From positions 1 through 37,168 of the IMG/VR virus record IMGVR_UViG_3300042563_000114: DNA of 37,168 nucleotides; one strand, 5' to 3'. The stretch is from a virus. This document shows positions 4,451 to 31,929 of this stretch, in pieces; the first letter of the stretch is position 1, and each line of letters starts with the position of its first letter. The notes beneath the pieces were generated by a model that made no database searches, was not told the DNA's origin, and worked only from the letters and a program-made list of their open reading frames with translations. Position numbers and translations under genes: made by a program.

Positions 4451-5791
4451 ATGTCACAAGCAATTATTGAAAAACTGGATGCTATTGAAGCCAAGCAAAG
4501 CGAAAGCATTGCCGCAGTAGAAGCAAAAATTCCCGCCGCTGTTGAGGCAATTAAAAACGAAATGCAAGAAACCATTGCCGCTTTGGAAGCCAAAGTAGCA
4601 TCGATTCAAGCACCCGCAATCGTCAAGCCCGCTACAACCGTGCGTGGTGATGTAAACCGTTCTGTTAAAGAACAACTTTCTACTTTCTACAAAGGTAACA
4701 ACCGTGTAGAAAAAGAACTGCAAATTTTTGCTGACGAATCACAAATGCAAGCGTATTTAAAAGAGGCATCAGCATTGACCGCAGGCGGCGATGGCAAAGG
4801 TGGTCGCACCGCCTATGACCCCGTGTTTGCCGCTTTGCGTTTGGCTAATCCCTTGCGCGGCGTGTCACGCACAGTAGCAACCGATGGTTCTTCATATCAA
4901 TTTCGTGTCAAAACTGGTAATGCGGGCGCGGCATGGGGCTATGCGATTCAAAACAACGGTGCTGATACAACTGAAAACACAAGCATTTGGCAATTAGTTT
5001 TGCAAGACTTGAATGTTCAGTTTCCAATTCGTACCGCGGCATTGGATGACATTGATGGTTTGGAAGCCAATGTTGTTGACGATATGTTGGCCGAGTTTAG
5101 TCAGGCCGAAGCCTTATCAATGATTCAAAACAATGACCAAGGTGCAACATCATTGCCATACGGCGGAAGCAACGGTTTGCGTGGCCTTGACCAATACGCA
5201 GGTTCTAATGCTACCTATGCAGGTGGTACTTGCTCTACAGCGGCTTTTGGTTCTACTGGTACAGGTTCTTCAAGCGGCTTGCATAGCCTTGCTACTTACG
5301 ACCAAACAACCACTAACGCGGCAACAGTTGGCGCAAACAACATCACCTATACCGATGTAGTTAACTTTATCTATCAATTGCCACAACAATACTGGACTGC
5401 AAACGCTAAGTTTGTGATTAGCCCAATCTTGTTGAACGCAATTCGTGCATTGAAAGACAACAACGGCGCACCTATCTTTAACCGTAACGAAGGTTTGTCG
5501 GTTGAAGGCATCGTTGGTCAGTTGATGGGCTTTGATGTTGTCGTTAACAAGTATTGCGATACACCATCACAAACAACAGCAGGTTCAGCAGGTACAAATT
5601 CTTTGTATCCAATGTTCTTTGCTGATTGGTCACGTTTCCACACAATCGTTGACCGTTTAAACATGGTTATGCGCCGCTACGACCAGACGGCCCCAGGATT
5701 TATAACATTTTTTGGGGAAAAACGCCTTTGCACAAGTGTTCGCGACCCATTCGCAGGTGTTCGTTATCGCTCGACAGGCACAGCGACCTAA
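4451..5791 (+). CDS. Major capsid protein, HK97 fold, with delta domain
   Basis: 446 residues. Residues 1-55 form a predicted coiled coil rich in Ala, Glu and Lys (EKLDAIEAKQSESIAAVEAK), as in the removable delta domain of HK97 gp5. The mature part seems to begin near residue 100 (KEASALTAGGDGKGG) and carries AALRLANPLRGVSR, TSIWQL, FPIRTAALDDI, MIQNNDQ, SNGLRGL, and an end block GEKRLCTSVRDPFAGVRY. It should build the icosahedral shell. It follows the protease directly, and an intrinsic terminator ends it. The next gene encodes a clear paralogue lacking the coiled coil. Codon use resembles the neighbours. Confidence 0.92.
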   Translation: MSQAIIEKLDAIEAKQSESIAAVEAKIPAAVEAIKNEMQETIAALEAKVASIQAPAIVKPATTVRGDVNRSVKEQLSTFYKGNNRVEKELQIFADESQMQAYLKEASALTAGGDGKGGRTAYDPVFAALRLANPLRGVSRTVATDGSSYQFRVKTGNAGAAWGYAIQNNGADTTENTSIWQLVLQDLNVQFPIRTAALDDIDGLEANVVDDMLAEFSQAEALSMIQNNDQGATSLPYGGSNGLRGLDQYAGSNATYAGGTCSTAAFGSTGTGSSSGLHSLATYDQTTTNAATVGANNITYTDVVNFIYQLPQQYWTANAKFVISPILLNAIRALKDNNGAPIFNRNEGLSVEGIVGQLMGFDVVVNKYCDTPSQTTAGSAGTNSLYPMFFADWSRFHTIVDRLNMVMRRYDQTAPGFITFFGEKRLCTSVRDPFAGVRYRSTGTAT

Positions 5792-5808
5792 TCATTGCGT
5801 TGCCATTA

Positions 5809-5837
5809 GCGGGGGGCGAAAATCCCCCGCTTTTTTT
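5809..5837 (+). terminator. Intrinsic terminator after the major capsid gene
   Basis: A seven-pair GC stem (GCGGGGG with CCCCCGC) and an eight-base loop are followed by seven T residues. This is a textbook rho-independent terminator, placed 18 bases after the capsid stop and 14 before the second capsid-like gene. In the middle of a head operon it would lower downstream expression, so the capsid protein could be made in excess over the paralogue and neck proteins. Alternatively it may protect the 3' end of the capsid message. Confidence 0.85.
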
Positions 5838-5850
5838 AAAAGGAATCACC

Positions 5851-6879
5851 ATGACCGTAACCCAAAAAATCCTATCCGCAATTCAAGAAACTATCCAAAC
5901 AGGCGAACGCGTATCAATTGATTTGCGCGAAGCATCTGCGCTTACGGGTTCGGGTAATGGCATTGGTGGTCGAACTTATTTTGATGATGCGTTTGCGGCT
6001 TTGCGTTTTGCAAATCCCGTTAGACAACTTTCCCGCGTAATTTCCGCATCAGGTTCAAGCGTTCAATTTGTTGCTAAGACAGGTAACGCGGCTAATCAAA
6101 CAAACCCGTTTGGTTACACATTCACACCTGACAGCGGAACACCAAATACAAATACATCGATTTGGCAATTGCCTACGCGTGTAATCACAGCGCAATTACC
6201 AATTCGAACTGCGGTTCTTTCAGATGTTAATTATTTAAACGAAACCATTGTTGAAGATTTAATGCTTGAGTTCGCCAATATTGAAGGCGCATCAATGGTT
6301 TTGAACAATGACCAAGCGGGTTCAACAACTACAGTAAACGGCGGCACAAGCGGTTTGCGTGGTTTAAATATGTACACTAGCGCGGCATCATCTGCTTTTG
6401 GTACAAGTGGAACAGCAATTACAAATGGTATTCATTCAATTGCTACATACACGCAAGCGGCGGCGGCAGTTACTTATTCAGATATTACTGATATGGCTCG
6501 TTTATTCCCTGCTCAATATTGGAATTTACCCAATACAGCATGGATGATGCACCCACAAACAATTCACGAATTACGCAACTTAGGCAGTGGAACAACAATC
6601 AAACAATTTGCTGAAACTGGTGATGATGATGGCGGTGCTGTTGTCAATATCTTTGGTTTCCCTGTAATTGCCAATCCAAATATGCAAACAACAGGCGCGG
6701 GAAAATTTAACATTTACTTGGCTAATTGGCCTAGATTTGTAACTGTTGCTGATGTTGAGGAAATGACTATACAGGCAATGGAACAAACACAAGCAGGCTT
6801 CATAACCCTGTTTGCAGAAAAACGTCTTGTAAGCACCGTGCGCGACCCGTTTGCGGGTATTCGTTTGGTCGGCGTATAA
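5851..6879 (+). CDS. Second capsid-like protein, paralogue lacking the delta domain
   Basis: 342 residues from the ATG at 5851, which has AAAAGGA at good spacing; a longer frame back to 5728 would run through the terminator and is rejected. The sequence aligns with the preceding capsid protein from LREASALTGSGNGIGGRT (residue 25) to the last block EKRLVSTVRDPFAGIRLVGV, sharing FANPVRQLSR, TSIWQLP, LPIRTAVL and SGLRGL. About 78 N-terminal residues, including the coiled coil, are absent. It could be a minor shell component such as a vertex (pentamer) protein, as T4 gp24 is to gp23, or a diverged duplicate. The role is inferred; the homology is seen directly. Confidence 0.88.
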   Translation: MTVTQKILSAIQETIQTGERVSIDLREASALTGSGNGIGGRTYFDDAFAALRFANPVRQLSRVISASGSSVQFVAKTGNAANQTNPFGYTFTPDSGTPNTNTSIWQLPTRVITAQLPIRTAVLSDVNYLNETIVEDLMLEFANIEGASMVLNNDQAGSTTTVNGGTSGLRGLNMYTSAASSAFGTSGTAITNGIHSIATYTQAAAAVTYSDITDMARLFPAQYWNLPNTAWMMHPQTIHELRNLGSGTTIKQFAETGDDDGGAVVNIFGFPVIANPNMQTTGAGKFNIYLANWPRFVTVADVEEMTIQAMEQTQAGFITLFAEKRLVSTVRDPFAGIRLVGV

Positions 6880-29403: not shown

Positions 29404-29646
29404 TTAAGCCAACAAAGCCGCCAAATGTTCAGGCGTACCCTCACGGTACACGCCGCCAACAAACGCGTAGTAGCGAACGCCTTTGGCATTGATAAGAACA
29501 CCAACCGCGGGGTGCAAATCTGTACGGGGGGTGAACTTGGCAACCTTGGCGGCATGGGCGGCATTGGCTTTGGCAAAGCGCATTTCACTTGCATCGCGTT
29601 CGTTGCGTTTTGTTTCTACTGCTTGTTTAAATGTTAAGTTTGTCAT
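29404..29646 (-). CDS. Small early protein with helical N-terminus and beta C-terminus
   Basis: 80 residues: MTNLTFKQAVETKRNERDAS, an Ala-rich helix (FAKANAAHAAKVAKFTP) and VGVLINAKGVRYYAFVGGVYREGTPEHLAALLA. The last part looks like two strands and a helix. It follows cassette 2 with AGAAAG as ribosome site, and shares only MTNL with the 73-residue gene. The next gene starts 13 bases later. No family recognised. Confidence 0.7.
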   Translation of the reverse strand: MTNLTFKQAVETKRNERDASEMRFAKANAAHAAKVAKFTPRTDLHPAVGVLINAKGVRYYAFVGGVYREGTPEHLAALLA

Positions 29647-29692: not shown

Positions 29693-29720
29693 ATTATAAG
29701 CCAACTAATACGGGTGTCAA
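29693..29720 (-). promoter_or_regulatory. Early leftward promoter 2, consensus sigma-70
   Basis: Perfect TTGACA and TATAAT boxes separated by 16 bases on the minus strand. The dyad ATAAGCCAACTAAT (29696-29709 plus strand) overlaps as in promoter 1. A 23-base block upstream of the -35 box (29735-29757) is repeated exactly at 30125-30147 upstream of promoter 3. Strong early expression under repressor control is expected. Confidence 0.85.
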
Positions 29721-30092: not shown

Positions 30093-30120
30093 ATTATAAG
30101 CCAACTAATATATTTGTCAA
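30093..30120 (-). promoter_or_regulatory. Early leftward promoter 3, consensus sigma-70
   Basis: TTGACA and TATAAT on the minus strand with a 16-base spacer, and the dyad ATAAGCCAACTAAT at 30096-30109. It is the first leftward promoter of the divergent control region and would serve the role of a lambda PL. Confidence 0.85.
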
Positions 30121-30223: not shown

Positions 30224-30376
30224 ATGACAAAAAAAGAATTGTTAACCAAGGTACGCAACCAAACCGAATTAGCGGAATTGCTAGGCATCAGGCAATCCGC
30301 TATTAGCCAATGGAAAGAAATACCCAAGGCTAGGCTTTGGCAATTAAAGTTACTCAAACCTAAGTGGTTCAAATGA
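30224..30376 (+). CDS. Cro-like helix-turn-helix regulator, 50 residues
   Basis: MTKKELLTKVRNQTELAELLGIRQSAISQWKEIPKARLWQL and a basic aromatic end (KPKWFK). The segment NQTELAELLGIRQSAISQWK is a clean Cro/YdaS-type helix-turn-helix: Q and A of helix 2, the G turn, and recognition helix RQSAISQW. Lambda Cro is only slightly larger. It sits at the rightward side of the divergent early promoters and is the natural candidate to bind the ATAAG-N4-CTWAT dyads, including the one over its own promoter. It overlaps the next gene as ATGA. No larger CI-type partner is found. Confidence 0.82.
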   Translation: MTKKELLTKVRNQTELAELLGIRQSAISQWKEIPKARLWQLKLLKPKWFK

Positions 30377-30570
30377 CAAAAATAGAAAAATACCTACATC
30401 ACAAATCTTTGATGATGGAACACTTAGCATTTGCGTATGCCAATCAATCGATGCAAGATTCTTTGTACCAACTGATTTGCTACCATTTGCACAAAGATTA
30501 CACGCAAGGTTATTATTATTTTATGACTTATCAGGAACGCAAAGATTTGCAAACGATGATGGTTCTTTGA
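30373..30570 (+). CDS. Small protein after the Cro-like gene
   Basis: 65 residues from the ATG coupled to the regulator stop (ATGA). MTKIEKYLHHKSLMMEHLAF, then LYQLICYHLHKDYTQGYYYFMTYQERKD. Rich in Tyr, His and Leu; helical throughout, without a clear membrane segment. It may be a partner of the regulator. The -35 box of the small RNA promoter lies inside its last codons. Confidence 0.6.
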   Translation: MTKIEKYLHHKSLMMEHLAFAYANQSMQDSLYQLICYHLHKDYTQGYYYFMTYQERKDLQTMMVL

Positions 30571-30576
30571 TACAAT
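30547..30576 (+). promoter_or_regulatory. Promoter for the structured small RNA
   Basis: TTGCAA and TACAAT separated by 18 bases, 4 and 5 matches to the consensus boxes. The predicted start is near 30583, a few bases before the first paired element of the small RNA. The -35 box is in the end of the preceding gene. Confidence 0.6.
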
Positions 30577-30582
30577 AATTTA

Positions 30583-30690
30583 AAAGACGCTTGGCGGCGT
30601 TTCACAGTAGGGTTACACATGAAGTCTGCTGGTACTGTGCCAGTCCGCCAACATCCGCAAGGGTGAGACTTCAGGTGTAGCCCTTTTTTT
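30583..30690 (+). ncRNA. Structured small RNA resembling C4 antisense RNA
   Basis: A three-way structure is visible. The closing stem pairs 30609-30618 with 30675-30684 and 30620-30627 with 30666-30673 (18 pairs, one A-G mismatch). Inside are CTGGT-ACTGT-GCCAG (30629-30643) and CATCC-GCAA-GGGTG with a GNRA loop (30652-30665). A T-run after the closing stem makes it a terminator. The single strand CCGCCAA and the loop ACTGTG are complementary to TTGGCGG and CACAGT just upstream (30591-30597, 30603-30608), with the same five-base spacing in both. Shape, order and motifs recall the C4 antisense RNA of phages P1/P7. The family name is from memory. A 15-codon reading frame lies inside. Confidence 0.68.
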
Positions 30691-30700
30691 TAGGCTAAAA

Positions 30701-31177
30701 ATGAAAGAAAATCTTTCACATGAATTACTTACAGAAAATGTTTTTTATGATTCTGTAACTGGAACTTTTGTTTGGAACAAAAAAGGCAAAAACAGAATTG
30801 TTGGCAAAAGTATAGGAAGAAAACATTGCAAAGGTTATTTGCAAGTTTGGTTTAACGGATACTTTTACATGGCTCATAGACTTGCTTGGTTTTATGTTTA
30901 TAAAAAATGGCCTACTCAATATCTTGACCATATAAATGAAAACAAACTTGATAACAGAATTGAAAATTTAAGAGATGTTTCTCATTCTGTAAATTTGGCA
31001 AATCAAAAAAATCCACAAAAAAACAATACTTCCGGTTTCAGAGGAGTTTCATACAAAAAAAGAATTTCTAAATTTCATGCTCAAATTTTTGTTAACAAAA
31101 AATACAATTCTTTGGGATATTTTGATAGTGCAGAAGAAGCGCATAAGGCTTACTTAAAATTTAAAGAGCAAATCTGA
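30701..31177 (+). CDS. HNH homing endonuclease with AP2 domain
   Basis: 158 residues. The HNH part reads AHRLAWFYVYKKWPTQYLDHINENKLDNRIENLRDVS, with the D-H-I-N.....N.-N-L core of the HNH_3 type; the C-terminal AP2 domain (SGFRGVSYKKRISKFHAQIF, then YFDSAEEAHKAYLKF) binds DNA. Such free-standing enzymes spread by cutting related phages that lack them. The gene is clearly more AT-rich than its neighbours, with long A-runs, and lies directly behind the terminator of the small RNA, so it looks recently inserted. Its stop overlaps the replication gene start (TGATG). Confidence 0.9.
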   Translation: MKENLSHELLTENVFYDSVTGTFVWNKKGKNRIVGKSIGRKHCKGYLQVWFNGYFYMAHRLAWFYVYKKWPTQYLDHINENKLDNRIENLRDVSHSVNLANQKNPQKNNTSGFRGVSYKKRISKFHAQIFVNKKYNSLGYFDSAEEAHKAYLKFKEQI

Positions 31178-31929
31178 TGCACTACTACCAATTTCATATT
31201 GGCGACTACATAAGCCATACAAGGCATCTTTCTTTGATGGAAGATTTAGCCTATAGGCGGTTACTTGATTTCTATTTTTTGCATGAACAAGCAATTAAAC
31301 ATCGGGATGCCGCCCGACAAATTGGGATGCGCGAACATGAAGAAGATGTAATGACCGTGCTAAACGAATTCTTTATTTCTACGGAAGATGGGTTTGTTAA
31401 CCCCCGTGCGGATAAAGAAATTAAACAGTACAAAGAATTTTCAGAAGCGGGTAAACGTGGGGCGGCTAAGAGGTGGGGAACACCCCCTAATGGGGAGGCT
31501 AGTAGCCCCCCTAATGCTACCCCAATAGCAACCAATAACCATAAACCAATAACCAATAACCATAAGAAAGAACAACGCGGCTCACGCCTCGCCAATGATT
31601 TGTTTTTTCCAAAAGATTGGTGCGATTTTTTAGTTGAACAACGCCCCGAACTAAACGCACAAAAAACCTTTGACCAATTTAAAGATTATTGGATTTCACA
31701 GGCAGGGCAAAAGGGCGTTAAGTTGGATTGGTTTGCAACATGGCGCAATTGGGTAAGAAGCACAAACGCACCCAAACAAAACCATGTTGATATAGCCCGC
31801 GTAACCGTGCCAATGGACAATCGGCCCGACCCCGCGTTAGAAAAAATTAAAGAAGATTCTTTACGCGCCGTACCGCCATCATTGGAAGTATTAGCAAAGA
31901 TGGCAGCATTGCGTAAAGTAAATATATGA
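31177..31929 (+). CDS. Replication protein with DUF1376 (YdaU-like) domain
   Basis: 250 residues. The opening YYQFHIGDYISHTRHLSLMEDLAYRRLLDFYFLHEQ is the hallmark of DUF1376, found in phage replication initiation proteins. The N-terminal 90 residues are winged-helix like; a Pro/Asn-rich linker (about 100-130) follows, then a second part (LFFPKDWCDFLVEQRPELN, DYWISQAGQKGVKLDWFATWRNWVR) typical of the replisome-loading end of such proteins. It probably binds the phage origin and recruits host replication enzymes. It overlaps the methyltransferase start as ATGA. An origin could lie inside the gene, possibly in the ACCAATAACC repeats near 31530-31560. Confidence 0.8.
   Translation: MHYYQFHIGDYISHTRHLSLMEDLAYRRLLDFYFLHEQAIKHRDAARQIGMREHEEDVMTVLNEFFISTEDGFVNPRADKEIKQYKEFSEAGKRGAAKRWGTPPNGEASSPPNATPIATNNHKPITNNHKKEQRGSRLANDLFFPKDWCDFLVEQRPELNAQKTFDQFKDYWISQAGQKGVKLDWFATWRNWVRSTNAPKQNHVDIARVTVPMDNRPDPALEKIKEDSLRAVPPSLEVLAKMAALRKVNI

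Follow-up and report, generated by a model that had tools for sequence, protein, structure and literature searches.

A putative C4/CI-like leader RNA that unites antisense elements, target, and terminator ahead of phage replication genes

What does a C4-like antisense RNA act on when no antirepressor gene follows it? C4 and CI RNAs are the lysogeny-immunity RNAs of phages P1, P7, and P4. An RNA of this kind was proposed in an earlier note for positions 30583 to 30690 of a viral DNA of 37,168 nucleotides (IMG/VR record IMGVR_UViG_3300042563_000114, here called the window), where it precedes an HNH-AP2 endonuclease gene. The locus was read as an immunity switch that might have lost or exchanged its target. 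We examined the fold of the RNA, its relatives in other phages, and the genes behind it.

The leader RNA carries its own target

The promoter-like element, the T-run terminator, and the three-way junction with two inner hairpins, one of them closed by a GNRA loop, were all borne out (Table 1). The predicted fold of the 108-nt strand consists of a 5′ hairpin followed by the three-way junction, with a folding energy of −47.1 kcal/mol (z = −4.9) that none of 200 shuffles equaled. The closing stem, stem P1, had been described as 18 pairs long; it does span 18 positions, but one is a mismatch, which leaves 17 pairs. Two exposed segments, a′ in the loop of hairpin P2 and b′ in the junction strand, are complementary to the upstream elements a and b. 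The pairs a/a′ (CACAGT/ACTGTG) and b/b′ (TTGGCGG/CCGCCAA) are in register, with the same 5-nt spacing on both sides, as first described, and b is displayed in the loop of the conserved 5′ hairpin. Taken together, the promoter, 5′ hairpin, junction, terminator, and in-register pairs between 30547 and 30691 are confirmed as real and far above chance.

The position of the promoter places the putative start of the RNA near 30583. The matched target therefore exists as claimed, but it does not lie just upstream of the RNA; it is part of the RNA itself, within its first ~26 nt. Since the target of the RNA is its own leader, no target has been lost.

Table 1. Positions of the leader RNA, its parts, and the neighboring genes in the window
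Feature	Positions	Strand	Remarks
Cro-like repressor gene, upstream	30224..30376	+	PF14549 P22_Cro
Sigma-70-type promoter, TTGCAA-18-TACAAT	30547..30576	+	overlaps 3′ end of small ORF 30373-30570
Small leader RNA, inferred start to end of T-run	30583..30691	+	about 108 nt
5′ (alpha) hairpin, loop displays junction target	30586..30601	+	three inner pairs in 183/183, with compensatory changes
Target element b, TTGGCGG	30591..30597	+	exact complement of b′ in 183/185 distinct relatives
Target element a, CACAGT	30603..30608	+	adjoins terminator stem with zero linker
Closing stem P1 = terminator stem	30609..30684 (30609-30626 with 30667-30684)	+	compensatory changes, 17/17 counted pairs
P2 hairpin, GCTGG-TACTGTG-CCAGT	30628..30644	+	antisense a′ (ACTGTG, 30634-30639) in loop
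Antisense element b′, CCGCCAA, junction strand	30645..30651	+	complementary to b
P3 hairpin, GCAA loop	30652..30665	+	predicted fold
T-run of intrinsic terminator, eight T	30684..30691	+	sequence
HNH-AP2 homing-type endonuclease gene, between leader and replication gene	30701..31177	+	PF13392, PF00847; phrog_99
DUF1376 primosomal/replication-initiation-like gene	31177..31929	+	PF07120, phrog_3992; usual gene behind the RNA

A widespread RNA family in front of replication genes

No Rfam family was found for the RNA in the window, either at the gathering score or at E ≤ 10; the family is absent from Rfam 15, and no named relative appeared in the literature searched. Members were gathered by pattern scans of viral contigs, with a detection script that relied on P2, the long stem, and the T-run alone. 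This yielded 256 contigs, each with one RNA, so that the family numbers at least 256, and 185 distinct RNAs. In 183 of the 185, the junction strand has a perfect 7-nt complement upstream. Four b/b′ types occur: TTGGCGG/CCGCCAA (137 RNAs), TTGACGG/CCGTCAA (35), TTGGAGG/CCTCCAA (10), and TTGGTGG/CCACCAA (1). Among the 183 distinct RNAs analyzed further, 74 loci had first been named by b + b′ patterns and 108 otherwise.

Pairing between a and a′ was counted with a separate script, because MAFFT places part of the a′ loop wrongly where loops are of unequal length. The loop pairs over at least 5 bp with the stretch just before the stem in 180/183 RNAs, or in 168/171 once members found by the pattern that named a are excluded. 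When each distinct a′ loop was taken once, 37/40 paired over at least 5 bp, compared with 11 on average and at most 19 in 1,000 swaps. Conserved pairing in relatives, on which the earlier note had staked its reading, is thus present for both elements. In an alignment of 36 diverse sequences, 96.7% of paired cells were complementary, against 78.4% in shuffled alignments and 33 to 47% with slid partners; 26 of 36 pairs had undergone compensatory change, and the nested structure from RNAalifold agrees. P2 co-varies in Pseudomonas phage AH02 and others (CAGG/CCTG, CCGG/CCGG), which indicates that its invariance in one alignment (A1) was an effect of the search pattern. Among near-identical RNAs, a/a′ changes 3 to 6 times faster per site than stem P1 (uncorrected for relatedness).

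Cultured members are phage AH02 (MZ501271; RNA at about 29521-29629), whose host is P. koreensis, and Leptolyngbya phage Lbo-JY16 and Plectonema phage Lbo240-yong2, both of L. boryana. The complete environmental genome MW202462 is also a member, and there CACAGT/ACTGTG has become CTCAGT/ACTGAG. Outside the viral contigs, a pattern scan of 84,980 bacterial genomes returned 58 matches, all resembling chance coding matches, and the RNA was not found on plasmids. A covariance model (R1) found nothing at E ≤ 0.001 in about 790 genomes of three families, in a run that had no positive control and scored few candidates per genome; two weak R1 matches (L443 and L444) resemble coding sequence and were rejected. 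These data establish a real, widespread, and so far unlisted family of structured RNAs.

Eight members (L211, L445, L446, L450, L455, L460, L463, and L481), several of them on contigs of about 61 kb, have a TATAAT-like box between the 5′ hairpin and a (GGTATAATTCTTAACAGGCC). A second promoter at this place might yield an RNA that lacks the target.

The position of the RNA relative to its neighbors is also conserved. In 195 relatives, a −10 box precedes the 5′ hairpin at a nearly constant position. At the other end, the start codon of the next gene lies a median of 18 nt (quartiles, 17 to 20) past the start of the T-run in 245/256 contigs. The ribosome site of that gene adjoins the U-tract, and another promoter would not fit between them, which leaves terminator readthrough as the only route to the gene. 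In 172 of the 245, the next gene belongs to a single replication initiation/primosomal cluster (DUF1376, O-like, Lin1244_N). In 58 more, the window among them, the replication gene stands close behind an HNH, GIY-YIG, or small ORF. Related phages thus have a replication gene first or close behind the RNA in 230/245 cases.

The earlier note saw no antirepressor gene after the RNA in the window, and none turned up in this position in the relatives that we inspected. Its suggestion that the target had been lost or exchanged was not supported; the HNH-AP2 gene is an insert between the leader and the replication gene, and its end overlaps the DUF1376 start at 31177. HNH or GIY-YIG endonucleases also stand exactly behind the terminator in L006, L007, L014, L023, L034, L064, L083, and L090. 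Their start codons keep the same spacing as that of the replication gene, which makes the site a likely insertion hotspot. The RNA occupies a different place within the early region in AH02 and the Leptolyngbya phage, where the genes that follow it have no known function.

Among 37 records tested, nearly all of at least 30 kb although some may be incomplete, a tyrosine integrase was found in one and an S24 repressor in none. The sole integrase-bearing record is L203 (integrase at L487). A crude regular expression for a Cro-like C-terminal motif just upstream matched 50/248 contigs, and we therefore do not claim that the RNA always follows cro. Transcription may also enter the leader from a promoter that precedes the Cro-like gene. 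On the minus strand of the window, two perfect TTGACA-16-TATAAT promoters (30093-30120 and 29693-29720) lie within near-identical repeats (GCCAACTAATA..TTTTGTAGGTAGTTTCCCTAA) and are probably leftward early promoters with Cro operators. Elsewhere in the window, the adjacent ORFs at 4451-5791 and 5728-6879 both match major head protein families (phrog_10), possibly through a duplication or a split.

Relation to C4, CI, and plasmid attenuators

The covariance search with the Rfam C4 model (RF01695), proposed earlier as a check, gave no match in the window (E ≤ 10) or in 16 relatives (E ≤ 1), while the same model detected its controls, C4 of phage P1 at 68.8 bits and the P4 CI RNA, which falls in the same Rfam family, at 74.9 bits. 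The c4-a1b1 model (RF03163) likewise had no match in the window at E ≤ 10 and matched phage P1. As tested, the leader RNA is not a member of RF01695. The earlier interpretation is borne out in part: the Rfam model does not recognize the RNA, but the two-part recognition grammar is there, in more detail than first described.

In both RNAs, a long closing stem bounds a three-way junction, and the antisense elements lie in one hairpin loop and in the junction strand. They share the core GCTGG-loop-CCAGTC-x-G-x-CAAC; when the phage P1 core, GCTGG-loop-CCAGTCTGTCAAC, is compared with the CCAGTCCGTCAAC type of leader RNA (e.g., L288), 1 of the 13 positions after the loop differs. In phage P1, junction strand CTGTCAA pairs with TTGACAG and hairpin loop CACTAAC pairs with GTTAGTG. 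The upstream order of the targets is the same, TTGACAG, 7 nt, and GTTAGTG in phage P1 and TTGRCGG followed by the loop complement in the leader RNA; in one member (L032), the loop complement is GTTAGT, which may be compared with the GTTAGTG of phage P1. The c4-a1b1 consensus presents TTTGGCAG in a hairpin loop, much as the 5′ hairpin of the leader RNA presents b. A G/A change is common to both families, seen as TTGGCAG/TTGACAG in C4 and as TTGGCGG/TTGACGG in the leader RNA.

The main difference in topology between the two RNAs is the order of their helices. C4 has a small hairpin, the target hairpin, and then the junction strand, whereas the leader RNA has the target hairpin, the junction strand, and then the small hairpin. 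Further, in the leader RNA the target is fused to the RNA with no spacer, and the closing stem doubles as an intrinsic terminator. No a2/b2 pair is present at the downstream ribosome site (0/245 with both elements), and replication genes follow in place of icd/ant. The phages also differ, those with the leader RNA being mostly without integrase or S24 repressor. The 5′ end of phage P1 C4 is made by RNase P, and specificity in P1 and P7 is set by a few changed bases (PMC5320573). The motifs and their order suggest that the leader RNA is a distant, rearranged homologue of C4.

The CI RNA of P4 offers a direct precedent. By pairing with seqA, which lies upstream of it, this RNA causes premature termination of transcription of the replication genes of P4 itself (PMC4825925). 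Like the leader RNA, it is an antisense RNA from the leader of a replication operon with its target upstream on the same transcript. In P4, however, the parts (seqA, CI, seqC, and a distinct terminator-like hairpin) occupy some 300 nt, and CI arises by processing of a longer transcript, whereas the leader RNA is a single terminated RNA of 108 nt from which seqC is absent. The P4 CI module allows prophage carriers, in contrast with the 1/37 integrase and 0/37 S24 repressor counts of the leader-RNA records. The seqA region of P4 (L438, 8720-8508, minus strand) matches isrK (RF01394); it presents GTGAGAA in a hairpin loop, with TTCACAGG after it, so that the two parts come in the order seen in the leader RNA.

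Antisense attenuators of the pT181/pIP501 type exert feedback on a replication gene through a terminator in its leader, with an antisense RNA made from the opposite strand. In the leader RNA, by contrast, sense leader and antisense are one molecule. By sequence and predicted fold, it appears to be a C4/CI variant that unites antisense, target, and terminator in one replication-operon leader.

A proposed attenuator and its alternatives

On balance, we lean toward autogenous attenuation of the phage replication operon by the RNA, which would derive from the C4/CI immunity RNAs or be a close relative of them. As the RNA emerges, a and b would pair with their partners a′ and b′ while the 3′ half of the long stem is still to be made. 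Since a directly adjoins the base of the stem, a:a′ pairing would be incompatible with a fully closed terminator stem; the result would be readthrough and production of the replication gene. This is a distance argument: in 183/183 RNAs, the end of a falls somewhere from 3 nt within the stem P1 duplex to 1 nt short of it, while b lies 10 to 14 nt from stem P1. With 18 positions in stem P1, 5 pairs in P2, and a standard helix rise, a:a′ pairing should require a few basal pairs to open. Rough energies, which ignore pseudoknot penalties, are about 13 kcal/mol for opening the basal stem and about −7 and −11 kcal/mol for a:a′ and b:b′, so the paired and terminator states are comparable.

A finished RNA would expose a′ and b′ and could bind both target elements of the leader being made next. 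Once a and b were captured in trans, the stem of that leader would close and transcription would stop. The outcome would be negative feedback on the replication genes, with exclusion of relatives of the same a/b type as a by-product. The faster change of a/a′ than of the P1 stem fits specificity determinants, as in phages P1 and P7. Trans action and superinfection immunity are both predicted here from sequence. Since phages of the family mostly have neither integrase nor S24 repressor, classic lysogenic immunity does not apply. A bolder version, which we hold only tentatively and think may well be wrong, is that these phages have an RNA-only system of immunity and copy control that operates without lysogeny genes. 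Terminated leaders would terminate sibling or superinfecting leaders of the same type in trans, and the 40 or more compensated a/a′ types would be immunity groups.

The most serious alternative dispenses with trans action. A purely cis-acting leader, perhaps under the influence of a protein, the ribosome, or an ion, could use a:a′ and b:b′ as intramolecular pseudoknots that set the balance between terminator and antiterminator. All of the co-varying complementarity does lie within one 108-nt RNA, and a second two-part target was found nowhere else in the window, AH02, or MW202462. However, the same two-part grammar serves trans antisense regulation in phage P1 C4 and P4 CI, and a/a′ diversifies faster than the other stems, which a structural pseudoknot would not need. 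We regard a cis-only leader as unlikely, though deserving of attention.

Its own promoter and terminator and its sRNA-like size would also suit a stand-alone trans-acting small RNA directed at host or other phage messages, with the downstream gene incidental. This is very improbable, given that the loop element changes together with its cis target in nearly every relative and that the start-codon spacing and the replication gene are conserved. Still harder to sustain is the classic action of C4, in which the RNA, whose recognition elements are indeed C4-like, would block translation by binding a further target at the ribosome site downstream. Targets for a 6-mer of the loop within 150 nt downstream are rarer than chance (5 seen; 16.6 expected), both elements together occur there in 0/245, and the downstream genes change while the RNA stays. 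A 6-mer of b alone was seen 27 times within 150 nt downstream of the T-run in the 245 relatives, where 5.7 were expected, perhaps owing to shared coding sequence. A ligand-sensing riboswitch before the replication genes, to which the highly conserved junction residues and the terminator platform might point, deserves equally little credence, since those residues make up the antisense element itself, changes in the variable loop are compensated, and the invariance of P2 stems partly from the search pattern and is broken in AH02.

In the RNA described here, the recognition grammar of C4 and CI is packed into one self-terminating leader before the gene that starts replication. The leader RNA is widespread in environmental phages that mostly lack an integrase and a CI-type repressor, and cultured test systems are at hand in a Pseudomonas phage and in Leptolyngbya phages. 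Control of replication by RNA attenuation may, these findings suggest, be general among lytic phages.
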